Shown piece by piece: positions 37 through 25,964 of a DNA stretch of 26,753 nt. The notes beneath the pieces are model-generated. The model had not been told where the DNA came from. It searched no databases and saw nothing but the letters and a program-made list of their open reading frames with translations. This DNA is from a virus. Made by a program: the position numbers and the translations under genes. The DNA is taken from the IMG/VR virus record IMGVR_UViG_3300030104_000601, positions 1 through 26,753 of that record; one strand, 5' to 3'. Position 1 is the first letter of the stretch, and the number at the start of each line of letters is the position of its first letter.

Positions 37-1971
37 ATGGCAACAGAAAATATAGACATAAATTTAAATATAATAGATGCAAAGGCACAAAATACGTTAG
101 GTGGATTAATTGAGAAATTAGACGCATTAAGAAATAAAATACAAGACGTAGAAATTGGTACAGAAGCATTTGAGAAACTGTCTAGAGAAATACAACAAAC
201 AAGTTCTGAAATAAAAGTTCTAGAAAAAAATCTAGAGGGTTTAGAACCACAACAAAAGGCTGAAGCCTTCTTAAAAATGGGTGAAGGTATCGCAGGTGGA
301 TTTATGGCGGCTCAGGGTGCTATGGGTTTATTGGGTGTAGAATCTGAAGATTTAGAAAAAATACAAGTAAAGGTACAATCTGCTATTGCTATAGCTATGG
401 GTATTCGTATGATGTCTGAGGCAGCTTTAATGGCTAAAACAGCAAAAAGGGTTATTTTAGAAAAGGCGAGTACAGTAGCGACAAAAGCTAATACAGTAGC
501 AACTTATGCAGCAGTCGCAGCACAAAAGTTTTTATCGAAAGGTCTAGGCATAACAATAAAAGGTCTAAAGGGTTTAAAAGTAGCTGTAATGACTACAGGT
601 ATTGGTGCATTAGTAATAGGTGTTACTAGCTTAGTATCAAAACTAACAGGTAGTAAAGGGGCAAATAAAGGATTAAGTGAGTTCGAAAAAAGAATGAATG
701 CTGTTAGTCGTGAACTTGAAGAAGCTAATAGATTACTAGGTCGTGATCGTGAAAAGATGTTACGTGATATAGGTGAGGTCGAAGAAAACCATGCAGACAC
801 AAGAAAACGTGAAGCAGAAGAACAAATAGAAGATAAAAAGGCATTAATTGAATTGCTAAAAGAAGAAAAAGGAAATGTACAATCTCAGATAAAGGCTTAT
901 AATCAAATAGAAGCGTTTTACGGTTCTGAAAAAGCTAATGAATACTGGCAAAACTTAAAAGATGCAGGTATAGTTAATATTGACGTAACACAAAGTTATG
1001 CAGGTGCTATTGAAGATTTACAAGACGAAATAATAGAACTAGGTAAAGTAACGGTCGATGCTCAAAAAGATAGTATTTTATTTAATAGAGCGCAAGAAAA
1101 TATAACAAATACACTAAAAAAAGTTACAGATGCTATTAAAGACCGTCAAAAAGAAGAAGATAAAGCACGAGAAAAAAGAAAAGAACAAAGAAAACAAGAC
1201 AAAGAAGATACGTTAGCATTAGAACAAGAACTAATTTTATTAAGAATAGAAGACGAAAATGACAGGGCACGTAAGGAACTCGAAATACAAAAAGAAAACG
1301 ACATAGCTAAATTAAAAGGGGCTTTGAATTTTAACGAACAAAAGAAACTAATTGAAGACAAATACAAACTATTAAATCAAGAACTTGAAGACGAAATAAA
1401 TGACGCATGGTGGGATAATTTTATAGCACAAAATGACGCATGGAATGAGGCACAATTAGAAGAGCAAGAAATGATTGCAAAAACAAAACAAGATGAACTT
1501 GACGCAATAGAAGAACGAAAAGCCGCAAGAGACACACTAACATCACATCAGTTAGCAGCCTTAGGACAAATAGCACAATTATTTGATCAAAATTCTGTTG
1601 CAGGTAAAGCGGCAGCGCTTGCAGAGATAGCAGCAAATACGGGTGTAGGATTTATACAAGCTTTACGAGTAGCGCAAGAAGGAGCGTTACAAAGTACACC
1701 GTTTGCTTTCCCTATATTTTATGCATCACAAATAGCAGCGGTATTAGGTGCAGCAAATCAAGCTAAATCTATATTAGGTGCAGGTGGTGGTACGTCAGGG
1801 CCTAGCGATATTGGTGCAGGTTCTGTACCTGACACAATGCAGCCAGCGTCAGGTGCATTTACATTAGGTGGTGGTATAGAACAAGAACCGTTAAAAGCCT
1901 TTGTAGTTACTGACGAACTTTCTGACAGTCAAGATATGTTAGCTAACATTAGAAGAAGATCAACTATTTAA
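37..1971 (+). CDS. Tail tape measure protein
   Basis: The 644-residue product is probably the tape measure protein, which fills the tail tube, sets tail length and leaves the tube at DNA injection. Residues 1-80 are helical with regular charged heptads. Residues 85-205 are alanine- and glycine-rich with long hydrophobic stretches (VAVMTTGIGALVIGVTSLV near 180-200). Residues about 345-480 form a highly charged coiled coil. Residues about 515-590 are again hydrophobic, with a glycine-rich tail. This hydrophobic/coiled-coil/hydrophobic layout is typical of Bacteroidota phage tape measures. At about 0.15 nm per residue it predicts a tail near 95-100 nm. Its gene lies downstream of the fibre (across the ends) and upstream of the head genes, which is an unusual place. 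The family call rests on composition and context; no catalytic motif is expected or seen. Confidence 0.8.
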   Translation: MATENIDINLNIIDAKAQNTLGGLIEKLDALRNKIQDVEIGTEAFEKLSREIQQTSSEIKVLEKNLEGLEPQQKAEAFLKMGEGIAGGFMAAQGAMGLLGVESEDLEKIQVKVQSAIAIAMGIRMMSEAALMAKTAKRVILEKASTVATKANTVATYAAVAAQKFLSKGLGITIKGLKGLKVAVMTTGIGALVIGVTSLVSKLTGSKGANKGLSEFEKRMNAVSRELEEANRLLGRDREKMLRDIGEVEENHADTRKREAEEQIEDKKALIELLKEEKGNVQSQIKAYNQIEAFYGSEKANEYWQNLKDAGIVNIDVTQSYAGAIEDLQDEIIELGKVTVDAQKDSILFNRAQENITNTLKKVTDAIKDRQKEEDKAREKRKEQRKQDKEDTLALEQELILLRIEDENDRARKELEIQKENDIAKLKGALNFNEQKKLIEDKYKLLNQELEDEINDAWWDNFIAQNDAWNEAQLEEQEMIAKTKQDELDAIEERKAARDTLTSHQLAALGQIAQLFDQNSVAGKAAALAEIAANTGVGFIQALRVAQEGALQSTPFAFPIFYASQIAAVLGAANQAKSILGAGGGTSGPSDIGAGSVPDTMQPASGAFTLGGGIEQEPLKAFVVTDELSDSQDMLANIRRRSTI

Positions 1972-4277: not shown

Positions 4278-4841
4278 ATGGCTTGTAATTTAACAAAAGG
4301 ACGTAACATAACATGTAGAGACGGTATTGGTGGTGTAAAAGCTATATACCTTGTACAGCATGATGAACTTACGTCTTTCACAGCAGCAAGTGGTGAAGTT
4401 ACTGATTTAGATTTAGGTTCTGGTGACGATATTTATAAATACATTTTAAAACGTGGTACGGGAAGTGTTACAGAAACTATTAACGCATCTAGCGAAAATG
4501 GTACTGTATTTTACACACATTCTGTAAATATCAAGCTTCACAATTTAACAAAAGAAGATCAAAACGAAATTAAACTTTTAGCACAGCAAAGAATGGTAGT
4601 ATTTGCTGAACTTAACCAGTTAAACAGCACAGGTAAAAACACTATCGTAGCTTGTGGTTTAGATAACGGGTGTGAGTTATCAGCGGGTACATCAGTATCA
4701 GGTGTTGCTCTAGGTGATATGATCGGTTATGATTTTACTTTCGAAGCTCAAGAACCAAACCCTATGCAATTAGTAGCAGATTACACTACAACACCGTTTG
4801 ACAACGGCGCGTTTACATTTAATGAGATAGTACAAAACTAA
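4278..4841 (+). CDS. Probable major tail tube protein
   Basis: The 187-residue protein begins MACNLTKGRNITCRDGIGGV. This is a recognisable start of a protein common in Bacteroidota siphophages that is generally taken as the major tail (tube) protein. The rest is beta-rich, with a central EDQNEIKLLAQQRMVVF helix and strand, as in tube proteins of the gpV/Hcp fold. It lies directly after the capsid gene with a 31-bp A-rich leader and is followed by the strongest terminator in the window, as expected for an abundant virion protein. It is far from the other tail genes. Alternatives are a head decoration or head-tail joining protein. Confidence 0.65.
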   Translation: MACNLTKGRNITCRDGIGGVKAIYLVQHDELTSFTAASGEVTDLDLGSGDDIYKYILKRGTGSVTETINASSENGTVFYTHSVNIKLHNLTKEDQNEIKLLAQQRMVVFAELNQLNSTGKNTIVACGLDNGCELSAGTSVSGVALGDMIGYDFTFEAQEPNPMQLVADYTTTPFDNGAFTFNEIVQN

Positions 4842-6625: not shown

Positions 6626-8737
6626 ATGAAAAAAAAGAAGTTAAAAGTACAAGACAATATTAACAACACAAAACAGCGTTTGTTAAATGTAAACTTAGAT
6701 ACACAGGTGTCACCATTAATACGTGAAGTAATGGGTAAAGACTATATAGAATACGGTACAGAAGACTATCGTAATTTATACCCACAATTTTTAATTGATC
6801 TTTACTACAACAGCTCGACACATGCGGCGATAGTAAATACTACAAGCGACATGATTGCAGGTGAGGGTTTAACAGTAGAAGAAGGCGACAACTTAAATGC
6901 ATACGTTAAATTAAAAAAGTTTTTAGCACATGCAAATAGTAAAGGTGAAAGTTTACACGACATAGTTAAAAAACTATCTTTTGACTTTAAATTACAAGGG
7001 GCGTACGCTTTAAACGTGGTATGGTCAAAGGATCGTACCTCTATATCAGAATTGTATCATATACCAGTAGAACGCATTAGAATGGGCAAACCAGACGTAA
7101 CAGGTAGGGTTAAAGAATACTATATAAGTGCTGATTGGAAACAACCAAGAAAACACAAACCACAAGCAGTACCAGCGTTTAGTTTAACAGATAGAACAAA
7201 CCCTAACGCTATTATATATGACGGTATGTACAGTCCTAACATGCAACTATATAAAACACCAGACTATGCAGCGGCTTGTAATTGGTGTTTAGTAGATCAA
7301 AAAGTAGCAGAATTTCATTTAGCTAATATAGAAAACGGTTTTGCAGGGTCTTACTTTATTAATTTCAGTAATGGAGTACCGACATTTGAAGAACGTAGAG
7401 AAATAGAAAACAGTATAAAAGATAAATTCACAGGTTCAAGTAACGCAGGTAAATTTGTACTTACTTTTAGTGACGATAAAAATAGAACACCAGAAATAAT
7501 ACCTATATCTGTAAGTGACGCAGATAAACAATATTTGGCACTCCAAGAACTTTTAACACAAAACATACTTACGGGTCATAGAATTACGTCACCAATGCTT
7601 TTTGGCATCAAAAACAATACTGGAATCGGTAATAATGCAGACGAAATGAACCAAGCTTACGAAATGTATCTAAATACAGTCGTAAAACCTTATCAGAAGA
7701 ACATATTAAGCTGTTTAAGCAAGTTATTTGAAGTAAACGATATGAACCTACCATTAGAGTTTGTTCAAGGTAAACCAATCACTACAAGATTTACTATAGA
7801 AGACATGAAAGAGGTTATGACGACTAGCGAAATACGTGAAGAACTAGGATTACCACCATTAGAAGAAGGTGTAGAACTAAGTAAAGATGACTTTGCTAAG
7901 GTAGGTAGTATGATTACAGACGGTAAAGAATTACCATTATACGACACTATAGAAGAAGCAGAAGAAGAAGCGTTAAGAATAGGTTGTAAAGGTTACCATG
8001 AACACACACAAGATGGCAAAACATACTATATGCCTTGTGAAAACCATGACCAGATTACAGAATTACAAAAGTGTGACTGTGAAAACCCTAGCAAAGAATG
8101 TGAAAAGGAATGTGACAGATATGAGAAACTAAGTAAAGAAGAAACACCAACATCAGAAGAAATTATAAATTATATTAAAAATCTTACAAAAGAAGATGAG
8201 TATGATTTGATAGATGATTACAATTTATTAGATGAAGAGCAAGCTGAAGATGAAAACCATAACTATGAGTTTGCAGCAAATACAGGTGTAATAAATCCAA
8301 CTGGAAAAGCAGGCAAATCAAATAAAGACAAATCATTATTTAAAATAAGATATGTATATAGAGGCGGTGCACCAAAAGAAACAACAAGAGACTTTTGCAG
8401 ACATATGATGAATAACGAATATACTAGTTTATTTACTCGTGAAGATATTACAGCAATGACAACAGCAAATCCTGAGTTCGGAATTTACAATGTATTTAGA
8501 TACAAAGGTTCGTATAATTGCAGACACTACTGGTTAAGGAGATTGTATGTACTTAAAAAAGCACCAAGAAAAATAACTATAAATGGTAAAGAATATAAAA
8601 AAGGTGATTATCTTCCAAAAGAGTTGAAAAATTATTATCCAAGAAACAAAGGTTATGTGCCTCAAGACGCAGGTGTACCACCTAAAAATTCAGCAGAAAT
8701 GGAGGCAGGAAATATTAATGACAAAGTAGTAAAATAA
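6626..8737 (+). CDS. Portal protein with a long C-terminal extension
   Basis: Residues about 20-430 fit a phage portal (dodecameric vertex ring through which DNA is packaged): early STHAAIVNTTSDMIAGEGL, a middle LYHIPVERIRMGKPD segment, and a helical stem/crown region with QELLTQNILTGHRITSPMLF and the helix before EEREELGLPPLEEG-type residues. Typical portals are 400-550 residues; this one is 703. The extra part holds a His/Cys motif (GYHEHTQDGKTYYMPC at about 452-470), an acidic linker with a four-cysteine cluster, and a separate domain at about 570-650 with RYVYRGG, DFCRHMM, REDI and YNCRHYW. I cannot name that domain; similar blocks occur in head proteins of Bacteroidota phages. It is far from terminase, which is unusual. 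Confidence 0.85.
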   Translation: MKKKKLKVQDNINNTKQRLLNVNLDTQVSPLIREVMGKDYIEYGTEDYRNLYPQFLIDLYYNSSTHAAIVNTTSDMIAGEGLTVEEGDNLNAYVKLKKFLAHANSKGESLHDIVKKLSFDFKLQGAYALNVVWSKDRTSISELYHIPVERIRMGKPDVTGRVKEYYISADWKQPRKHKPQAVPAFSLTDRTNPNAIIYDGMYSPNMQLYKTPDYAAACNWCLVDQKVAEFHLANIENGFAGSYFINFSNGVPTFEERREIENSIKDKFTGSSNAGKFVLTFSDDKNRTPEIIPISVSDADKQYLALQELLTQNILTGHRITSPMLFGIKNNTGIGNNADEMNQAYEMYLNTVVKPYQKNILSCLSKLFEVNDMNLPLEFVQGKPITTRFTIEDMKEVMTTSEIREELGLPPLEEGVELSKDDFAKVGSMITDGKELPLYDTIEEAEEEALRIGCKGYHEHTQDGKTYYMPCENHDQITELQKCDCENPSKECEKECDRYEKLSKEETPTSEEIINYIKNLTKEDEYDLIDDYNLLDEEQAEDENHNYEFAANTGVINPTGKAGKSNKDKSLFKIRYVYRGGAPKETTRDFCRHMMNNEYTSLFTREDITAMTTANPEFGIYNVFRYKGSYNCRHYWLRRLYVLKKAPRKITINGKEYKKGDYLPKELKNYYPRNKGYVPQDAGVPPKNSAEMEAGNINDKVVK

Positions 8738-9303: not shown

Positions 9304-9446
9304 TAAAGAAAATATACAAACCAAAAGCTAAGAACGAAACAGCTTTAAAAAAATACATAAAAAATGCCACTAAGAAAGGTAACGACAGACATAACAGAAA
9401 CACTAACAGTAAATGCGACAGTAGTAAGCGTCACGACATTTGCTGA
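9300..9446 (+). CDS. Doubtful 48-residue basic ORF
   Basis: An ATG overlapping the stop of the connector gene opens a 48-codon frame that is very basic (MIKKIYKPKAKNETALKKYI at the start). It would fill the 60-base space before the holin-like gene. Its second half overlaps that gene's frame and reads as a shadow of it (NRNTNSKCDSSKRHDIC). It could be a genuine small coupled gene or nothing; I lean against it. Confidence 0.25.
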   Translation: MIKKIYKPKAKNETALKKYIKNATKKGNDRHNRNTNSKCDSSKRHDIC

Positions 9447-9543
9447 TTTAGAATTAATACTTAAAGTAGTTTTATTGGTTTTGTCAATAGGCTATACTGT
9501 AGCAAGGTGGCGTACACACTGTCGTAACAATAAAAAAAAATGA
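9364..9543 (+). CDS. Holin-like single-TM protein
   Basis: A 59-residue frame starts MPLRKVTTDITETLTVNATV and has one hydrophobic helix at about 31-47 (ELILKVVLLVLSIGYTVARW), followed by a short basic tail (RTHCRNNKKK). The form of an extracytoplasmic N-terminus, one TM helix and a basic cytoplasmic tail, plus its stop overlapping the endolysin start (ATGA), points to a holin or a membrane partner of the lysis cassette. Such proteins open the inner membrane at the programmed time so the endolysin reaches the peptidoglycan. It is too short to appear among longer ORFs, but similar small proteins precede M15 endolysins in Bacteroidota phages. Topology is predicted by eye. Confidence 0.7.
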   Translation: MPLRKVTTDITETLTVNATVVSVTTFADLELILKVVLLVLSIGYTVARWRTHCRNNKKK

Positions 9544-9920
9544 CACTTAAATACTTTAACAAGTCAGAGTTTACTTGTCCTTGCGGATCACCAGATTGTA
9601 CAGGTGAAAAAATGAGTGAAGACTTTTTACAGTTACTTGACTTAGCACGAGACAAAGCCTCTATACCTTTTCATATTACCAGCGGGCTACGTTGTCAAGA
9701 ATACAATCAAGACCTTATAAAACGAGGATATAAAGCAAGTAAAACTAGCAGTCACTTAAAAGGTGTAGCCGCAGACATATCGTGTAAGAATAGTGCAGAC
9801 CGTTTTACAATTATTAACAGTCTATTGTTAGTAGGTTTTTCACGTATAGGTATAAGTGACACGTTTATACACGTAGATTTGGACAAAGAAAAACAACAAG
9901 AAGTTATTTGGACATATTAA
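9540..9920 (+). CDS. Endolysin, M15 zinc D-Ala peptidase (Peptidase_M15_3-like)
   Basis: The 126-residue protein matches the VanY/M15A-type metallopeptidase used as an endolysin, cutting peptide crosslinks in the cell wall. Zinc ligands are visible: His72 and Asp79 in SSHLKGVAAD and His111 in TFIHVDLD. HITSGLRC (45-52) precedes them, as in the family. The N-terminus has a short Cys motif (C13-P-C15, C20), common in the phage versions. No signal peptide is present, so export depends on the holin. The gene is coupled to the holin-like gene (ATGA) and followed by a second small membrane protein. Length is normal for this single-domain enzyme. Confidence 0.92.
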   Translation: MTLKYFNKSEFTCPCGSPDCTGEKMSEDFLQLLDLARDKASIPFHITSGLRCQEYNQDLIKRGYKASKTSSHLKGVAADISCKNSADRFTIINSLLLVGFSRIGISDTFIHVDLDKEKQQEVIWTY

Positions 9921-17396: not shown

Positions 17397-17753
17397 ATGG
17401 AAAACGAACAAAAACGAACACAAAGCAATAAAAAGAAACTAATAGAAGCACTAGAAAAGTCATTAGGTATTGTAACAGAAGCGTGTGAGAAAGCACAACT
17501 AAGTAGAACACAGTTTTACAAATGGTACAAAGAAGACAAAGACTTTAAGAAACAGGTAGATAGTATAGAAGGTAAATTTATAGACTTTGCAGAAACACAC
17601 TTAAAAGAACAAATTAAAAACAATAACACACAAGCTACTATATTCTATTTAAAGACACGTGGACGTAAAAGAGGTTACGGTGATAGTCTTGATATTACAA
17701 GTGGTGAAGAACCTATTACAATAAACGTAAAGATTAATGGCGTTGAATATTGA
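17397..17753 (+). CDS. Terminase small subunit
   Basis: The 118-residue protein has an N-terminal homeodomain-like helix-turn-helix (KKKLIEALEKSLGIVTEACE, then AQLSRTQFYKWYKEDKDFKK), a central helix (IDFAETHLKEQIKNNNTQATI) and a short ending ITINVKINGVEY. It resembles phBC6A51-type terminase small subunits, which bind the packaging start site and load DNA onto the motor. The C-terminal part matches 'ATIFYLKTRGRKRGYG', typical for the family. Its end overlaps the large subunit start by 17 bases, the usual pairing. Whether it defines pac or cos is not visible. Confidence 0.85.
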   Translation: MENEQKRTQSNKKKLIEALEKSLGIVTEACEKAQLSRTQFYKWYKEDKDFKKQVDSIEGKFIDFAETHLKEQIKNNNTQATIFYLKTRGRKRGYGDSLDITSGEEPITINVKINGVEY

Positions 17754-19053
17754 TGCTAAGTTTACTAAGACACAAGAACAAGCATTAGAATACTTATTTG
17801 ACAATAAGACTACTGAAGTATTATACGGCGGTGCAGCGGGTGGTGGTAAATCATTTATCGGTTGTGCATGGATAATACTATTTTGTTTAAAATATCCTAA
17901 GACAAGATACTTAATAGGTCGTAGTAAATTAGACACATTAAAAAAGACGACTTTAAATACATTATTTGAAGTATGTAGTTTGTGGGGCTTGAAGTCAAGT
18001 GACCATTATAATTTTAATGGTAGTACAAATGTAATTACTTTTATGAATGGTAGTGAGGTTATATTAAAAGATTTATTCTTATACCCTTCAGACAGAAACT
18101 TCGACAGTCTAGGATCATTAGAAATTACAGCAGCATTTATAGACGAAGCTAATCAAATAACAGAAAAGGCTAAAAACATAGTAGCGTCACGTATAAGATA
18201 CAAGCTTGACGAACATAAATTAATACCTAAAATATTATTAACATGTAACCCTTCTAAAAACTGGGTATATACAGAGTTTTATAGACCAGCTAAAACAAAT
18301 ACATTACAATCATATAAAAAATTCATACAGTCATTAGTAGACGATAACGAATATATAAGCATGCATTATAAAGGACAATTAGAGAAACTAGACAGACTTA
18401 GTAAAGAACGTCTGTTATATGGTAACTGGGAGTATGACGCATCAGACGATAACTTAATAGAGTATAACAGCATATTAAATCTATTTAATCAAAACGGTGT
18501 AGAAGGTCAGAAATATATTACTTGTGACGTAGCAAGGTTCGGTAATGATAAATCAGTAGTAATGTTATGGTCAGGTAAAACAGTTACAAATATTAAAACA
18601 TTTGACACTAACACAATAACAGAACTAGCTGACTACATAAAGACATTACAACAAAAAGAAGCTGTAAGTTTAAATAACATTATAGTAGACGAAGACGGTG
18701 TAGGTGGAGGTGTAAAAGATATAATAAGGTGTAAAGGGTTTGTCAATAATAGTAGACCATTAAAAAATGAGAATTACCAAAACTTAAAAACACAATGTTA
18801 TTATAAATTATCTGACGAAATAAATAAAGGTCAGATAGGTATTAACACAGATAATATCACAGTACGACAAAACATAATAGAAGAACTAGAACAAGTAAGA
18901 AGTAAAGATCAAGACAAAGATACTAAACTAAGAATAGTAGACAAAGACACAGTAAAAGCAATTATAGGTAGGTCACCTGACTATGCCGATTGTTTAGCTA
19001 TGCGTATGTATTATGAAATAGATAGTAACTTCGGTAAATACTACATACAGTAA
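17737..19053 (+). CDS. terL: Terminase large subunit
   Basis: The 438-residue protein is the DNA-packaging motor and nuclease. The ATPase domain has Walker A GGAAGGGKS (31-39) and Walker B AAFIDEA (132-138), with the following TCNPSKNW (169-176) as the coupling motif. The nuclease domain has acidic residues of the RNase H-like fold: D264 in TCDVARFGND, D318 in IVDEDGVGGG, and D415/D418 in SPDYADCL. The domain order and length are normal. It docks to the portal, whose gene lies in a quite different place (6626). Codon use is like that of the neighbours. A 37-bp gap with the recurrent box separates it from the tail genes. Confidence 0.96.
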   Translation: MALNIDAKFTKTQEQALEYLFDNKTTEVLYGGAAGGGKSFIGCAWIILFCLKYPKTRYLIGRSKLDTLKKTTLNTLFEVCSLWGLKSSDHYNFNGSTNVITFMNGSEVILKDLFLYPSDRNFDSLGSLEITAAFIDEANQITEKAKNIVASRIRYKLDEHKLIPKILLTCNPSKNWVYTEFYRPAKTNTLQSYKKFIQSLVDDNEYISMHYKGQLEKLDRLSKERLLYGNWEYDASDDNLIEYNSILNLFNQNGVEGQKYITCDVARFGNDKSVVMLWSGKTVTNIKTFDTNTITELADYIKTLQQKEAVSLNNIIVDEDGVGGGVKDIIRCKGFVNNSRPLKNENYQNLKTQCYYKLSDEINKGQIGINTDNITVRQNIIEELEQVRSKDQDKDTKLRIVDKDTVKAIIGRSPDYADCLAMRMYYEIDSNFGKYYIQ

Positions 19054-19077
19054 ATTTTAAACTAAATATCAATTTAT

Positions 19078-19087
19078 TATATTATAT
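19078..19087 (+). promoter_or_regulatory. TATATTATAT box 3 nt before the tail chaperone ATG
   Basis: An exact copy ends three bases before ATG 19091 in the 37-bp gap after terminase. It probably opens the tail transcript, which may run to the end of the window and, by the circular reading, on into the tape measure gene. Confidence 0.5.
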
Positions 19088-19090
19088 ATT

Positions 19091-19708
19091 ATGAAAGTAA
19101 ATGTCATAGAAAACAAAACTACTAAAACATACAACGTGCCAGCTACATGGAACGAATTAACATTAGGTCGTTATATGCGTATTATGAAAGTTTTAAAAGA
19201 CGAAGAAGAAACGTCAGACATAGAAAGACTTGTTAGAATAATTAACTGTTTGTCTAAAATACCTAAGAAACACATTTATAGTTTAGAAGTTAATAGTTTA
19301 AAAAAATTAGGTAAACATATAACAAGCTTTTTAGAAAGTGAACCTAATGATGAGTTAGAACACTTTGTTACTATAGAAGATATAGAATACGGTTTTCATC
19401 CTAAATTATTTGATATGACATTAGGCGAGTTTGTAGACTTAGAAACATATATGAAAGACATAGACAATAACATGCATAATATCATGTCTATATTATACAG
19501 ACCAGTAACACAGAAAGACGAAGAAAATAAATATTTAATTGAAGAATACGAGCCTAGCGAAGAACGGGCAAACCTGTTTAAAAAACATTTAACAGTAAGG
19601 GAGTTTAACGGGGCTTCGGTTTTTTTTTCGGATTTAGAAAGACAACTTTCGAACAATTTGCTCAGGTCTTCAATACAGAAATTGAAGAAGAAGAAGAAAA
19701 AAACATAG
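19091..19708 (+). CDS. Tail assembly chaperone, short (G-like) form
   Basis: The 205-residue unshifted product resembles Bacteroidota phage tail chaperones: NVPATWNELTLGRYMRIMKV, EHFVTIEDIEYGFHPKLFDM, TLGEFVDLETYMKD, then MSILYRPVTQKDEENKYLIE, and NGASVFFSDLERQL near the end. It should bind the tape measure protein during tail assembly. The last part (residues 180-205) becomes Lys-rich (KLKKKKKKT), with rarer codons (TCG, TTG, CTC, AGG) than the neighbours. This suggests that the frame after residue 179 is the less selected one. A T9 run at 19620-19628 permits the -1 shift to the longer form. Confidence 0.8.
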   Translation: MKVNVIENKTTKTYNVPATWNELTLGRYMRIMKVLKDEEETSDIERLVRIINCLSKIPKKHIYSLEVNSLKKLGKHITSFLESEPNDELEHFVTIEDIEYGFHPKLFDMTLGEFVDLETYMKDIDNNMHNIMSILYRPVTQKDEENKYLIEEYEPSEERANLFKKHLTVREFNGASVFFSDLERQLSNNLLRSSIQKLKKKKKKT

Positions 19709-19884
19709 ATAGTCTAAACGCTAAGTGGGGGTGGTATCAAGCGGTGTTTTCATTAGCAAACGAAAATTTATTAGACTTCGATAAAATAGTAAAAAAACCA
19801 GCTTACGAATGTTTAACATTTATGGCATATAAACAGGACTTAAACAAAAAAAGACAAGATGAGTACAGACAGTATAAGGTTTAA
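19091..19884 (+). CDS. Tail assembly chaperone, frameshifted (GT-like) form
   Basis: After a -1 slip at T TTT TTT (19621-19627), reading continues from TTC (19627) to TAA at 19882-19884. This gives 264 residues, the last 85 of which read FGFRKTTFEQFAQVFNTEIE, an acidic run, then AKWGWYQAVFSLANENLLDF, KPAYECLTFMAYKQD, and a basic end. The 'WGWY..v..LAn......d.i...p...cL..m..K.d' pattern is typical of the T part of such chaperones, and codon use is phage-like. There is no separate start for it. A 10th T missed in sequencing would make one continuous gene instead; that is the main alternative. The end overlaps the next start by 26 bases. Confidence 0.7.
19618..19650 (+). promoter_or_regulatory. 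Programmed -1 frameshift signal
   Basis: In frame, codons GTT TTT TTT give the slippery heptamer T-TTT-TTT at 19621-19627. Nine bases on is a hairpin GAAAG-ACAA-CTTTC (19637-19650), a weak stimulator at normal spacing. Upstream is AAGGGAG (19597-19603), an SD-like element that is otherwise rare here. All three parts suit -1 recoding in tail chaperones. Confidence 0.65.
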
Positions 19885-20368
19885 AAGTTACAATAACGTA
19901 ATAGATACAATAAAGTGTATAGGTGAACAACACTTAAATATTAAGACAGTTACAAATGGTGATATTTGGGAAATTGACTTAGAACGTACTAATATATTTC
20001 CATTGTTTCACATTAACCCAGTATCAGTAAATATTAATCAAGGTCAAAGGGTTTTTAACTTTCAGTTATTTATAATGGATTTAGTAGAACCTAACGAGGC
20101 AAACGAACAAGAAGTAATGTCTGATACATTAGAAATAATGACTGATATAATAGCTGTATTTAAACACGGTGAAATACTATACACGTATGACGCTTCACAC
20201 GGCGAAGAACCTAGATACTTTATTAATAATGATTTTACATGTGAACCATTTACAGAACGGTTTGCAAATAGTGTTACGGGTTGGGTAATGGACATACAAG
20301 TTATTGTAGAAAGTGAATTGAATAGCTGTAACGTACCAATAGACAACACAACTATATGCGTAAAATAA
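19859..20368 (+). CDS. Probable tail terminator / tail completion protein
   Basis: The 169-residue protein starts inside the end of the frameshifted chaperone and has helix-strand order like tail terminators: SYNNVIDTIKCIGEQHLNIK, DIWEIDLERTNIFPLFHINP, NFQLFIMDLVEPNEANEQEV, EIMTDIIAVFKHG, and a final SVTGWVMDIQVIVESELN. Similar proteins occupy this place in Bacteroidota siphophages. Such proteins cap the tail tube and join it to the head. The usual order would place it nearer the tail tube gene, which here is elsewhere. It could also be another tail-assembly factor. Confidence 0.55.
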   Translation: MSTDSIRFKSYNNVIDTIKCIGEQHLNIKTVTNGDIWEIDLERTNIFPLFHINPVSVNINQGQRVFNFQLFIMDLVEPNEANEQEVMSDTLEIMTDIIAVFKHGEILYTYDASHGEEPRYFINNDFTCEPFTERFANSVTGWVMDIQVIVESELNSCNVPIDNTTICVK

Positions 20369-20442
20369 AAAGACTACTAACATTTAAAATAGGCAAAATA
20401 AAAATACAAATAATACCACCAAAAATAAGTTATGAACTATAG
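20356..20442 (+). CDS. 28-residue basic micro-ORF
   Basis: The frame MRKIKRLLTFKIGKIKIQII...PPKISYEL overlaps the upstream gene by 13 bases and the next by 11. It bridges the gap as the 41-codon ORF does before the HNH gene, and ends with the same Y-E-L-stop. It may serve only to couple translation. Very short, so uncertain. Confidence 0.35.
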   Translation: MRKIKRLLTFKIGKIKIQIIPPKISYEL

Positions 20443-20443
20443 A
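20429..20443 (+). repeat. 15-bp direct repeat GTTATGAACTATAGA, copy 2
   Basis: Second copy of the repeat at 16705-16719, again over a start codon (ATG 20432) and the stop of a micro-ORF. Confidence 0.6.
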
Positions 20444-20785
20444 GAATTTTACAACGATTTAAAAACATACTTAAAAGAAGAACTAGAAAGCTATACAGAT
20501 TATCCACAAAGTGCAAGTAATAACGCTAAACGCGCTATTGAATGGAAGGAAAAAAACGGCAGTAATTGTGGTACACGTGTAGGATGGACAAGGGCAAGAC
20601 AATTAGCAGACAGAAAACCAATTAGTAGAGACACTATAGCACGTATGGCAAGCTTTAAAAGACACCAGCAACATAAAGACGTACCTTATAGTGAAGGTTG
20701 TGGCGGTTTAATGTGGGATGCGTGGGGTGGTACAAGTGGTATAGAATGGGCAATAAATAAATTAAAACAAATAGATAATAAATAA
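20432..20785 (+). CDS. Uncharacterised conserved phage domain protein
   Basis: The 117-residue protein has a recognisable domain from about 20 to 115: YPQSASNNAKRAIEWKEKNG, RVGWTRARQLADRKPISRDT, IARMASFKRHQQH, then GLMWDAWGGTSGIEWA. The order 'A...A......r...G.......GW.Ra..LA....is.dti.rMa.F.rH...' and 'WGGt.G..Wa' is common in phages, alone or fused to head protease or other structural proteins. Its function is not established to my knowledge. Here it is alone in the tail module. It starts MNYR within the 15-bp repeat shared with the HNH gene. A TTATCCACA match inside it (20500-20508) is probably chance. Confidence 0.7.
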   Translation: MNYREFYNDLKTYLKEELESYTDYPQSASNNAKRAIEWKEKNGSNCGTRVGWTRARQLADRKPISRDTIARMASFKRHQQHKDVPYSEGCGGLMWDAWGGTSGIEWAINKLKQIDNK

Positions 20786-20787
20786 TT

Positions 20788-21240
20788 ATGGCAGATTTAA
20801 CAACAACAATTACAGAAAGTGTTACAATAAATGGTTCTACTAGAGGATCAACAAACACACTAACTACTACAGGTATTGTAGATACATTAGAGCGTACAAT
20901 ATCTTGTACACATTCACAGACTACTACTATTGCTGAGTTTGGCGCAACACCACATGCAGCAGCTAGTAATATAGACCGTGATAATGTTAAGTATATTAGG
21001 GTTACTAATTTAGACGACACAAACGAATGTATGTTAGGTGTAGTGTCAGGTGCTTCTAATTATCAAGTACGACTAAGAGCGGGGGCGTCACATATATTGT
21101 ACAACGGTGACGACATATTCGTAGCAGAAGAAGATACAACACCAGCATTTGCAGCGATAACAGCTGATTTAGCATCTTTACAAATTAGACCTAGTTCAAG
21201 TAATGACATACAGGTAGAAATGTTTATAGCTAGTGTATAA
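20788..21240 (+). CDS. Small beta-rich tail-region structural protein
   Basis: The 150-residue protein is Ser/Thr/Ala-rich and beta-like: TTTITESVTINGSTRGSTNT, TLERTISCTHSQTTTIAEFG, RDNVKYIRVTNLDD, then VRLRAGASHILYNGDD and a final NDIQVEMFIASV strand. This 'V.YIRVTNLD....v.l.v' and 'L.aG.s...' pattern is seen in small virion proteins of flavobacterial phages. No enzyme motifs. It is followed by the gp10-like gene with a TAATG overlap. The exact part (tail decoration or minor tail protein) is unknown. Confidence 0.65.
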   Translation: MADLTTTITESVTINGSTRGSTNTLTTTGIVDTLERTISCTHSQTTTIAEFGATPHAAASNIDRDNVKYIRVTNLDDTNECMLGVVSGASNYQVRLRAGASHILYNGDDIFVAEEDTTPAFAAITADLASLQIRPSSSNDIQVEMFIASV

Positions 21241-21791
21241 TGGCTAGAATATTTGGACTTGACTTTACTAATGTAGAAAAGTATTTAGACAGCTACGGTG
21301 CTTATTTAGTGAGGCAGGGGCAAAGTCGTTTAAATAAACGTAGAGCCACTGGAAACTTACGAAGCTCATTAAGACATAAACTTTTTAAAACAAGAGAAAA
21401 ATATGTACTAATGTTATTGTCAGCAAGGTATGGTGAGTTTGTAGAAAAAGGTGTAAGCGGAACGCAAACAGTAAGATCATATATTGATAGATATGGCAAG
21501 CGTAAAACATCGCCGTTTAAATTTAAACTTAAACAGCCACCTACTAGATCACTAGAATTTTACATAAGATCAAAAGGTATAAAAGGTAGAGACAAAAAAG
21601 GTAGATTTATAAAAAACAAATCATTAGCATATCTTTTTGCACGAAGTATTAAAAAGAAGGGTATAAAAGCGGCTAGCTATTACACACAGCCTTTAAGCTA
21701 TAGTTACAAATATTTCAAAAGAGAATTGTTAGCAAACTTTAAACAAGACGCATTAAAAGCAGTAAAATTAATATATAAAGATAGAGACTAA
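21240..21791 (+). CDS. HK97 gp10-like minor tail/head-tail protein
   Basis: The 183-residue basic protein has the gp10-like core LRSSLRHKLFKTREKYVLML, then ARYGEFVEKGVSGTQTV, the usual '...a.YA.yvE.G..g' motif, and a C-terminal helix LANFKQDALKAVKL. HK97 gp10-type proteins act at head-tail joining and tail completion. It is unusually Arg/Lys-rich, with a linker RGRDKKGRFIKNKS-like basic segment near 117-128. The stop is one base before the ATG of the large tail gene. A capsid-linked role is possible, but its place in the tail module fits tail completion. Confidence 0.75.
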   Translation: MARIFGLDFTNVEKYLDSYGAYLVRQGQSRLNKRRATGNLRSSLRHKLFKTREKYVLMLLSARYGEFVEKGVSGTQTVRSYIDRYGKRKTSPFKFKLKQPPTRSLEFYIRSKGIKGRDKKGRFIKNKSLAYLFARSIKKKGIKAASYYTQPLSYSYKYFKRELLANFKQDALKAVKLIYKDRD

Positions 21792-21792
21792 A

Positions 21793-23232
21793 ATGGCATT
21801 AATAATAGAACAGCAACCAAAATACAACTTATTACCAGTAGGACAAGAAATAATATACACAGTACACGACAATACAGCTATAAGTGGTAATTTTAAAATA
21901 AAATATATAGCAGAAATATATGTAAATAACGTGTCTAGTAATTTAATGGTAACAGCTAACAGGGTCGCAGTATTAAAAGCGTCACCTAACGCACAAGGAC
22001 GTGGTATATTTGACTTACAATCTATATTACAGTCTTATGTATCACCAGATTATGAAGGTGGTGTAGTACACAATTCTACTACTAGCTTTTTTTCACAATA
22101 TAACGGTACTAATTATTCAGACACAACACCACATACAATACATCAAATAGACGACTTTAGTACAAACAGAAATTCAGTTAGGTACGTTAGGGTACGATTT
22201 AAAATTGAATTTGCTACAAGTGCTACGGGTACAGTTAGTACAGCATTAGGCAGTGTAGATGGTAACAAAATATTAGTATTTAATGGTGTCTTATATGAAA
22301 CCGATATACTAAAAATGGACACTAACGGTAAATTTGGTTACCATTTAGGTCATCAAGGTTTAATAATGAATGCTAGCGGTGACAAGTTTTTAACTAATTC
22401 ACCTACTACACAATATATAAGACTAAACGATTATATGACGTTACCATTTTTTAGTCAATATAATGACGATTTTAGAGTAGGTGTCTCAGGTTTAACAAGT
22501 CCTTCTATAAAGTTTATTAAAATACAATTCTATTACAATGGTGCTACTACAGGGTCTTTAATAACTAAAACTATATCACCAAGTACAGGCGGTCATTCAG
22601 GTTATATGTCAGATAGTAATAACAAACTACAATTTGCAGGTGTAGGTACAGGAAATTTAGTAGGATCAGGTGTTTCGTTGCCAGCTAATTGGGATTACTA
22701 CACAGTCGTAGCACACGATAGTGGTGATAATTTAGTAAGTGATACATATAAGATATACAAGCAAGAAGATGATTGTAAAGGTTTTGAAACAATACGTCTA
22801 ACATGGTTAAATAAATACGGTGTATGGGATTATTACAACTTTACTAAAAAGTCTACAAGAACATACAATATAAATAGAAAACAATACAAACAAGTTAGCG
22901 GTACATGGAACGAAAACATATATAGAACAAAAGACCATAAAGGCGGTACTAAAAACTTTAGCGGTTCAATAAGTGAACAAATAGCAATTAATACAGATTA
23001 CATTACAGAAGCAGAAGCACAATGGTTAGAAGAACTATTTATAAGTACAGATGTTTTCATATTAAATAAAAGAAGTACAGATAGTGCAGACGAAGGCTAC
23101 ATAAGAAAATACATAGAACCTGTTACAATTACTAACACGTCACATACAAGAAAAACTACAGCTAATGATAGGTTAATACAGTATAACTTTACATTACAAA
23201 AAACAAGAACTAAAAAAACACATAGAATATAA
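21793..23232 (+). CDS. Distal tail / baseplate-like structural protein
   Basis: The 479-residue protein is beta-rich. Its N-terminal 150 residues resemble a Bacteroidota tail protein family (ALIIEQQPKYNLLPVGQEII, then NRVAVLKASPNAQGRGIFDL and the following QSILQSYVSPDY). The middle (about 150-320) is Gly/Ser/Thr-rich and may be a strand-rich insertion. The C-terminal third contains FETIRLTWLNKYGVWDYYNF, a conserved block in this family. It lies between gp10-like and hub genes and is joined to the latter by TAATG. It is probably a distal tail or baseplate component at the tail tip. Its exact counterpart in model phages is not clear. Confidence 0.65.
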   Translation: MALIIEQQPKYNLLPVGQEIIYTVHDNTAISGNFKIKYIAEIYVNNVSSNLMVTANRVAVLKASPNAQGRGIFDLQSILQSYVSPDYEGGVVHNSTTSFFSQYNGTNYSDTTPHTIHQIDDFSTNRNSVRYVRVRFKIEFATSATGTVSTALGSVDGNKILVFNGVLYETDILKMDTNGKFGYHLGHQGLIMNASGDKFLTNSPTTQYIRLNDYMTLPFFSQYNDDFRVGVSGLTSPSIKFIKIQFYYNGATTGSLITKTISPSTGGHSGYMSDSNNKLQFAGVGTGNLVGSGVSLPANWDYYTVVAHDSGDNLVSDTYKIYKQEDDCKGFETIRLTWLNKYGVWDYYNFTKKSTRTYNINRKQYKQVSGTWNENIYRTKDHKGGTKNFSGSISEQIAINTDYITEAEAQWLEELFISTDVFILNKRSTDSADEGYIRKYIEPVTITNTSHTRKTTANDRLIQYNFTLQKTRTKKTHRI

Positions 23233-25964
23233 TGAGTGTACAACTTGTAATATATCCACAAAACTATGAAGGTCAATTTACAGAAATAGCTGTACCTTTT
23301 TTTAACCAGCATGTATCTAATTTTTCTTTTAATAGTGGTTACTTAGGTACTGGTTATTCTTTAACTACAGCAAACCCAGTAGACACAGTAATGTCGAATG
23401 TACAACCTAACAATAGTTGGAATACATGGAATAGTACGGGTGGTGTGTGGGGCGCAGTATCTACACCGTCAATAGCTAGTAATAAAATTACATTAGACAG
23501 TGCTAGTTCTACATCTTCTACTGGTATATTTCAACTTATAAGTAATTTAGTAGTAGGTTTACAATATGAATTAAAAATAGAAATGCTAGCAGGTACGACA
23601 GGTACATTAATTATAGGTCACCATACTAACTGGACTTTTAACAATGTAGTTTACGAGCCTATTTTATTTAATTCTATTACACCTTCAGTAAGTACGCAAA
23701 CATTTACATTTACAGCAAATAGTGCTGACATGGTTTTAGTATTGAATTACTTAAATGATGACAATACTAATTTAGAAATAGGTAGTGTATCTATAAAAGA
23801 AACCACAACAAGTGCGCCTACGACTTACGAGTATACAGACGGTTCTGTAATTGTAGATTTATACGGTGACGAAACAATACCACTAACATTATCAATAGAC
23901 AATTTTAAAAACTTTGCAGAAAAGTCACAGAGTTATAGTAAGTCTTTTGATTTGCCAGCAACTAAAAGAAACAATAAAATATTTAGTAGTTTATTTGAGG
24001 TGACAAGATCAGTTAAAAATGATGTCTATGCATTTAACCCTTATAGAAAAACAAAGGCTATTTTAAAAGAAGATAGCTACACAGTTTTCGATGGTTATTT
24101 AAGACTAACAGAAATAAAAGACAAAGACGAAGAAATAAGCTACACAGTAAATTTATATAGCGATACAATTACATTAGCTGACACACTAAAAGAAAAGAAA
24201 TTTAAAGACATAGATTTTAGCGAGTTAAACCACACTTACAATAAAACAGTAATAAAAAACAGTTTTGACGGTGAACTAGACTTAGACAATTCACTATCTA
24301 CAGATAGTTTTGCATATACTGCTAGTTTAGGTGTAGACAAAACAGACGTTTTAAAATATCCTTTTTGTAAATGGAATGGTAACAGTTTTTTAGACGCAGG
24401 ACAAGTTAAACTAACAAGACTAGAAGACGCATTTAGACCGTGGCTACGTTGTAAATATTTAGTAGACAGGATAATATCAGAAGCGGGTTTTACATATAGT
24501 TCTGACTTCTTAAATAGTAGTGACTTTACACGTCTATTCATGGATTTTAATTTCGGTTCAGACACAGTAATAGAGTCTACACAGGGTAATATGGATACAG
24601 CCTTAGTAACTGGTTCAACTTCAGTAGTAGGTACTTCATATACTAATTTGCAAGTAAATGGTTTCACATCAGCTTACGGTCAAGCGTCAAGTTCGTTAAA
24701 TTGGAATTTTAGTACACATAAATTTACAGCTACACAAAACAATCAGACACATTCTTGTGCAAGTTATTCTGTAATTATTAAAAATCATGACAGTTCTACT
24801 AGAGACGTCACGTTTAGGTGGGTACACAAAGACAGTTCAGGTAACGAATTAAACGAAATAGATTTAGCGGTAGAATCAATTAACGCAGGTGCTACACATA
24901 CATTTCAAGGTACTTTTCAACAAGTATTAAATGACACAGATACACTAGAAGTACAGGCTAAGTCAAGTTCTGGATCGTTAGTAAAACAAGCGGGCGGTAC
25001 TTTTGCAATGCACGTACAAGTAACAGATAAAATACATACAGACATATTAAATGCAAAACGTGGTGATTTAGGACAGTGGCAATTTATAAAAGGTTTATTT
25101 ACAATGTTTAATCTTTTAATATTACAAGATAAAAGCGACCCTAGAAATTTAATTATAGAACCGTATAAGTCAGTGTTTATAGACGACAGTTTAAGTCAAT
25201 ACATAAATATAGAACAGCACGACTGGACTGATAAAGTAGATATATCAGAAATTAAGCTAAAACCATTACCATTAAAAAAGAGTTTAGAAATAAAATACGC
25301 AGAAGAAAATGACGACTATGCTTTACGGGTATATAAAAACGCTACGGGTTACGATTACGGTAAACAAGAAATAGACGCTACAGATTTTACAATTATAGAC
25401 GGTGAACAAAAAATAGAAGCTACACCATTTTCATCAACTTTTATAAAACCTATATTTGAAGCTTTTACAAACGAAATGACAATACCTGTAATTTACAAAG
25501 GTAATGAAGACGGGTCGTTTGTAGGTTTTGACAATAAACCACGTATATTGTATGACGTATCACACACTACTAATGTTAGTTTAGGATCGTCTACATATTA
25601 TATACCACCACAAAATGGTCAAAGTAGTGAAAATCAGAGTAATTTTTGCCAGTTTGCACACGTAACAGATATACCTACTACAGTAACAAGTAAAGATTAT
25701 AACTTCGGACAAGGTCAAATGGTAGGTAATATAGGTAGTCCACCTGTAGACAATCTATTTAATACATACTGGTTACCATATTACGATGAACTATATAACC
25801 CTGACACTAGAATAATGTCTTTAAGGGTGTTTTTAAAACCATCTGAAGTGTCTAATTTTAACTTTTACGACAAGGTAATTATAAAAAATAGACAATATAG
25901 GGTTAATAAGATAGACTATAAACCGAACGAATTAAGTAATGTAGAATTTATATTGATAGGATAA
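23232..25964 (+). CDS. Large tail hub / tip protein with beta-sandwich inserts
   Basis: The 910-residue protein is the largest in the window. After a short start (VQLVIYPQNYEGQF) comes a likely carbohydrate-binding beta sandwich (about 45-190, ending SVSIKETTTSAPT). Next is the core YEYTDGSVIVDLYGDETIPL, LSIDNFKNFAEKSQSYSKSF, DLPATKRNNKIFSSLFEV and NPYRKTKAILKED, a pattern of Bacteroidota tail hub proteins. A second beta-rich insert follows at about 450-600 (TSTLEVQAKSSSG-like end), then a conserved core with HTDILNAKRGDLGQWQFIKG and a last strand block (VIIKNRQYRVNKIDYKPNEL). It probably forms the central hub between tube and fibre. It is joined by TAATG at both ends. Confidence 0.7.
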   Translation: MSVQLVIYPQNYEGQFTEIAVPFFNQHVSNFSFNSGYLGTGYSLTTANPVDTVMSNVQPNNSWNTWNSTGGVWGAVSTPSIASNKITLDSASSTSSTGIFQLISNLVVGLQYELKIEMLAGTTGTLIIGHHTNWTFNNVVYEPILFNSITPSVSTQTFTFTANSADMVLVLNYLNDDNTNLEIGSVSIKETTTSAPTTYEYTDGSVIVDLYGDETIPLTLSIDNFKNFAEKSQSYSKSFDLPATKRNNKIFSSLFEVTRSVKNDVYAFNPYRKTKAILKEDSYTVFDGYLRLTEIKDKDEEISYTVNLYSDTITLADTLKEKKFKDIDFSELNHTYNKTVIKNSFDGELDLDNSLSTDSFAYTASLGVDKTDVLKYPFCKWNGNSFLDAGQVKLTRLEDAFRPWLRCKYLVDRIISEAGFTYSSDFLNSSDFTRLFMDFNFGSDTVIESTQGNMDTALVTGSTSVVGTSYTNLQVNGFTSAYGQASSSLNWNFSTHKFTATQNNQTHSCASYSVIIKNHDSSTRDVTFRWVHKDSSGNELNEIDLAVESINAGATHTFQGTFQQVLNDTDTLEVQAKSSSGSLVKQAGGTFAMHVQVTDKIHTDILNAKRGDLGQWQFIKGLFTMFNLLILQDKSDPRNLIIEPYKSVFIDDSLSQYINIEQHDWTDKVDISEIKLKPLPLKKSLEIKYAEENDDYALRVYKNATGYDYGKQEIDATDFTIIDGEQKIEATPFSSTFIKPIFEAFTNEMTIPVIYKGNEDGSFVGFDNKPRILYDVSHTTNVSLGSSTYYIPPQNGQSSENQSNFCQFAHVTDIPTTVTSKDYNFGQGQMVGNIGSPPVDNLFNTYWLPYYDELYNPDTRIMSLRVFLKPSEVSNFNFYDKVIIKNRQYRVNKIDYKPNELSNVEFILIG

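Follow-up and report, generated by a model that had tools for sequence, protein, structure and literature searches.

What does a run of nine T near the end of a small gene do, if the coding sequence on its 3' side continues in another frame? The gene in question lies in a stretch of 26,753 nt, positions 1 to 26,753 of the IMG/VR virus record IMGVR_UViG_3300030104_000601, which was analysed as a whole and which we call the window. The initial annotation had read a zero frame that ends at 19708 after a Lys-rich stretch and a -1 frame that is open to 19884. Direct reading of the sequence confirms both, since the Lys-rich zero-frame tail stops at a TAG (19706-19708) and the -1 frame continues without a stop across the T9 run up to a TAA (19882-19884). 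The short product consists of a shared N-domain and a 26-residue zero-frame tail 3' of the T run, and the long product of 264 amino acids joins the N-domain to the -1 extension (Table 1). All other positions in that annotation were also correct, except for those of an A7 run, which is found at 19697-19703 and not at 19695-19701. No other T run in the 26.7-kb window reaches nine, a length for which 0.36 runs would be expected.

Table 1. Positions in the window of the recoded gene, its parts and the genes discussed with it.
Feature	Position	Strand	Basis
Candidate tape-measure protein, possible chaperone partner	37..1971	+	length, composition; homologues in 8/12 relatives
Terminase large subunit, immediate upstream neighbour	17737..19053	+	PF03237 and phrog_2
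Short zero-frame product, 205 aa, candidate tail assembly chaperone (G-like)	19091..19708	+	ORF
Putative T9 slip site	19620..19628	+	sequence; at least nine T in 179/179 sequences
-1 frame extension, 85 aa, T-like domain with W-G-W-Y motif	19627..19884	+	open frame, conserved C-domain, third-position bias
Putative dual-coding overlap of short and long products	19627..19708	+	substitution pattern, open zero-frame tails
Next gene, overlaps end of -1 extension, conserved neighbour	19859..20368	+	in 12/12 related genomes or records tested

The T run in related phages

Searches with the joined protein recovered 14 relatives from IMG/VR, and tblastn recovered the two isolated Nonlabens phages P12024L and P12024S. 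Profile scans added more IMG/VR contigs as well as five contigs of Bacteroidota genomes (Winogradskyella, Flavobacteriaceae, Bacteroidetes and Dysgonomonas). The resulting set comprises 179 sequences, including the window; L027, which is cut off before the site, was left out. These 179 sequences form 91 clusters at 80% amino acid identity and have a median pairwise identity of 32%.

A pure T run is present at the junction in all of them, with nine T in 152 sequences, ten in 26 and twelve in one; runs of eleven do not occur among the 179. In every case where there is a second half and it was framed, it is found in the -1 frame, and fused frames were seen in none of the 179 sequences, the two isolates included. 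The C-domain encoded by the -1 frame is nearly constant in length (78-95 amino acids in untruncated relatives), and the zero-frame tail is variable. In the 91 representative genes no other T run is longer than six, and the junction run has at least nine T in each of the codon phases in which it is found (2, 1 and 0). The single T12 run (L136, 3467-3478) stands in place of T9, which amounts to exactly one extra codon and keeps the -1 relation. Thus, the search for the same split in related phages, which the initial annotation had suggested, places it at the same site in 179 of 179 sequences, and the programmed -1 frame change with two products that had been claimed is borne out. As judged on the assembled sequences, neither ten T that unite the frames nor a relative with a continuous frame was encountered. 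From this comparison we consider it almost certain that a frame change at the T run is conserved.

Constraint on both frames after the run

Substitutions were compared in 42 independent pairs of relatives. Before the run, changes are concentrated at the third positions of the zero frame (0.27 vs 0.10 and 0.05), and after the zero-frame stop at the third positions of the -1 frame (0.19 vs 0.08 and 0.05). The overlap shows a mixed pattern, with 0.14, 0.07 and 0.15 at -1 positions 1, 2 and 3, as expected when two frames code. Moreover, the zero-frame tails are open for 51 codons on average, compared to 10 under random synonymous recoding of the -1 protein, and in this recoding test their openness reaches p<0.05 in 66 of the 91 clusters. 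That the tails are open so far beyond expectation suggests that the short form is a real product too. Short and long proteins therefore both appear to be made from one start, in the pattern of gpG and gpGT.

These results bear on two explanations in which the frames of the window would be split by accident or only in some genomes. The first, raised in the initial annotation, is a sequencing or assembly undercall of T10 in what is one continuous gene. Errors in homopolymers are generally frequent, and the frames of the window would be continuous if a single T were added. However, the same state is found in all 179 sequences, which come from many samples and include two isolates, relatives with T10 and T12 are also out of frame, and the substitution pattern together with the avoidance of stops indicates constraint on both frames after the run. 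An undercall is thus refuted, and we assign it next to no probability. The second explanation is a phase-variable contingency locus, at which DNA slippage would toggle the long product between genomes. A homopolymer inside a coding region would fit such a locus, but the fused (on) state was seen in 0 of 179 sequences and both frames are constrained, which makes it very unlikely.

It is also conceivable that the two halves are separately translated genes, the -1 ORF having a start of its own. This is how the Nonlabens phages have been annotated: in JQ823123.1 and JQ823122.1 (2492-3186 in both) the halves are listed as two CDS, P12024L_40/41 and P12024S_38/39, all of them hypothetical proteins. 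Conserved -1 coding, however, starts at the run itself, with FF[L/F].F[R/K], and a separate start would leave the conservation of the T run unexplained. Moreover, one relative (L079) has a -1 stop immediately 5' of the run, which means that the 5' limit of the shift is the run itself and that the long reading must begin inside it. Separate translation is therefore highly improbable, and P12024L_40/41 and P12024S_38/39 are probably one recoded gene each. Annotation could be corrected accordingly for such genes, which are now split into two 'hypothetical proteins'.

Ribosome or polymerase as the source of the frame change

The two-form tail chaperone is textbook ribosomal recoding in long-tailed phages, and in phage lambda gpG and gpGT result from ribosomal slip at GGGAAAG. 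The window gene shares with lambda the two-product -1 logic and a long form that is extended by a C-domain, but differs in gene order, and the searches made gave no family match to the lambda proteins. Programmed -1 ribosomal frameshifting would here mean that two tRNA-Phe slip back on T TTT TTT without stimulators. The slippery T TTT TTT of the initial annotation is indeed correctly phased in the window, and the run is long enough to imply a T TTT TTN heptamer in every relative, so that ribosomal slip is possible. Known frame changes in tail chaperone genes are ribosomal, some of them without stimulators (PMC5009743, PMC3091744), and the N-domain weakly resembles the P2 gpE family (PF10109). 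The feature that is conserved, however, is a run of at least nine T in any phase.

Three further elements had been put forward as signals. An SD-like AAGGGAG (19597-19603) lies upstream of the T9 run, and a 5-bp hairpin (GAAAG 19637-19641 / CTTTC 19646-19650) starts 8-9 nt 3' of it; both are present in the window. None of the 91 representatives, however, has a strict SD-like 5-mer within 20 nt upstream of the run, and no conserved RNA structure was detected up- or downstream, the mean downstream folding z being about zero (-0.01 to -0.14). Thus, neither of the elements that often, but not always, stimulate ribosomal shifts recurs in the family. The A7 run, proposed as a second slip place, is absent in two relatives (L003 and L005). 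As none of the three is conserved, we rejected them as functional signals, and they are probably incidental. Bacteroidetes mRNAs are known to lack SD sequences (PMC6847099). What the compared sequences conserve as a signal is the homopolymer itself, at least nine long and in any codon phase.

This conservation fits better with slippage of RNA polymerase. On the T9 run, the polymerase would at times insert one U to give U10, and ordinary ribosomes would read such a transcript straight into the -1 frame and make the long form. Tail assembly would be chaperoned by the short form; the long form would carry an added domain that recruits tail-tube subunits. Ribosomal slip, in contrast, needs neither nine T nor a kept length in the other codon phases. 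Changes that break the run, are silent in both frames and keep the in-frame heptamer would be possible in 83 of the 91 clusters. About 17-18 broken runs were expected in these and none was seen, and at position 8 of the run a doubly silent C, giving TTC, is used in 0 of 62 clusters, compared to C at 33 of 93 (35%) doubly silent T/C sites just downstream, although common descent of the clusters means that the probabilities of both results are overstated. When clusters were drawn at 50% identity, 5.2 broken runs were expected and none was seen (P about 7e-4). If efficient ribosomal slip required the final T of T TTT TTT, flanking hydrophobic residues would account for T9 in those clusters that have the commonest phase; the clean test would then be confined to about eight clusters whose run has another phase.

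We also surveyed 511 neighbouring ORFs. Runs of at least nine T occur in none of them, with 4.4 expected, and T8 occurs three times, with 12.7 expected; T7 is only mildly reduced. In-frame T TTT TTN heptamers, on the other hand, are tolerated 83 times. The length that is avoided in these ORFs is thus the length that is used at the junction. Runs of at least nine A are also depleted (10 vs 43 expected), and in general long A/T runs are avoided in the coding sequences of the related loci, their numbers falling sharply at T8-T9 and at A9. Such avoidance is consistent with slippage-prone transcription or replication in the hosts, and replication slippage could also account for it. Baranov et al. 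(2005, PMC1088944) found that nine is the length avoided in many genomes, and they state that a 9A/9T run very likely serves transcriptional slippage if homologues have kept its length. The junction run shows the features described there (PMC1088944): it is an A/T homopolymer of about nine, its length is conserved and it joins two frames. Genes in which transcriptional slippage is known include Thermus dnaX (A9), bacterial IS elements (conserved 9A/9T) and type III secretion genes of Shigella (PMC1088944, PMC5009743); as in these, a conserved A or T homopolymer of about nine joins the frames in the window gene and ribosomal stimulators are unneeded.

The closest ribosomal counterpart is the gpE/gpE+E' pair of phage P2. 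It resembles the window gene in that a small tail gene undergoes a -1 change at a T-rich site close to its end, that a short and a long product result and that downstream structure is lacking, and the N-domains have a weak profile similarity, which is below cutoff. P2 differs in that its site is TTTTTTG (T6) and ribosomal, the shift in the gpE family having been established experimentally (PMC3091744 and its citations), whereas the family of the window has at least nine T in every relative. We examined 15 P2-type loci as a control, of which L184, L185, L200, L269 and L270 were not framed correctly by the automatic procedure. The sites are TTTTTTG, TTTTTTC, TTTTTTT, GGGAAAG or AAATTTT, TTTTTTG having been read directly in P2 and by pattern in the near-identical set L185-L264. 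P2-type ribosomal sites thus vary, and their T runs are at most seven long.

Taken together, the length and phase behaviour of the run leads us to infer that the frame change is probably due to programmed transcriptional slippage by RNA polymerase rather than to ribosomal slip, which appears possible but less likely. According to a review (PMC5009743), both mechanisms may act at one such site. Slightly less firmly, we favour the reading that in this family of Bacteroidota phages, which is both large and diverse, the two forms of the tail chaperone arise because RNA polymerase slips on at least nine T, and not by ribosomal frameshifting. Transcriptional slippage in a tail chaperone gene was not reported in the literature searched, which included few subscription papers. 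If this reading is true, the two-form outcome of the chaperone gene is conserved while the mechanism that produces it is replaceable: the two-product logic of lambda and P2 would have moved from the ribosome to the polymerase, in hosts that seldom rely on SD signals, and we infer that the product ratio would be set during transcription in a widespread group of phages. Tools that look for ribosomal heptamers, SD elements or structure signals may misjudge such genes.

Identity of the gene and its neighbourhood

An AlphaFold2 model of the short product, built with 45 homologues, has a pLDDT of 91; that of the -1 domain alone has a pLDDT of 66 and was left out of the fold search. The family phrog_32199 was matched by 44 of the 45 homologues. 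PF10109 (Phage_TAC_7, the P2 gpE family) is the Pfam model most often touched, weakly and in seven of 45 homologues (best E 0.0019, below cutoff), and phrog_166 ('tail protein') was touched weakly in 19 of 45 (best 3.8e-6). The C-domain gave neither a PF10109 match nor any other consistent Pfam match. In the fold search, all good matches of the short product are uncharacterised Caudovirales proteins, a Nonlabens protein among them; the match at rank 45 in Foldseek is annotated 'Tail assembly chaperone' (E 0.066, probability 0.99) and falls below the threshold. PDB relatives were found neither by sequence profile nor by fold. The G/GT-like two-product layout, the weak PF10109 and phrog_166 matches and the sub-threshold fold match together make it likely, though not proven, that the gene encodes a tail assembly chaperone. 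The initial annotation as a tail chaperone gene is therefore plausible, but the gene adjoins the terminase gene and not a tape-measure gene. In sum, the locus is a real conserved two-product recoding site, as seen across the relatives, in a probable tail chaperone gene of Bacteroidota phages.

The position next to terL distinguishes the gene from the P2 type, and the usual place of a chaperone gene, between the tail tube and tape-measure genes, is not where it is found here. The candidate chaperone gene follows directly after terL, and in two relatives (G002 and G004) the tape-measure candidate lies about 7 kb downstream. Chaperones of the G/GT type bind the tape-measure and tail tube proteins while the tail is assembled and do not occur in the virion. 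The tape-measure model PF10145 had no match in 12 relatives or records. The gene order of the window is unusual: terminase, candidate chaperone and tail genes form one block (17737-25964), and the tape-measure candidate is located at the opposite end of the contig, beside protease, scaffold and capsid genes. A candidate tail tube gene lies at 4278-4841. Circular permutation of the contig is possible, but no end repeat was found in it.

A distant fold relative of the candidate chaperone (R9VW65) is present in Flavobacterium phage 6H. Its gene (L181, 10352-10927, minus strand), which was assigned to R9VW65 by length and by the ending RCFFY, ends with only T6, in an in-frame T TTT TTC. In its -1 frame, a TAG follows two codons after the T6 site, and then a C-domain-like ORF. 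With its short run and early -1 stop, phage 6H must join or express the two halves in some other way. A survey of Flavobacterium phages 6H and 11b and Cellulophaga phage phi10:1 for other A or T runs of at least nine that join frames yielded one candidate, an A9 run on the minus strand of 6H (30534) that is followed by a long -1 frame. It was rejected, as this frame matches the neighbouring annotated amidase and was taken to be an adjacent gene.

Two further features of the window were observed. The portal ORF (6626-8737) is long (703 amino acids). On the C-terminal side of the portal domain, its residues 439-474 match DUF3721 (E 4.8e-10), possibly as a fused extra domain. Finally, an A9 run (9532-9540) lies exactly at the stop/start junction of the ORFs 9364-9543 and 9540-9920.
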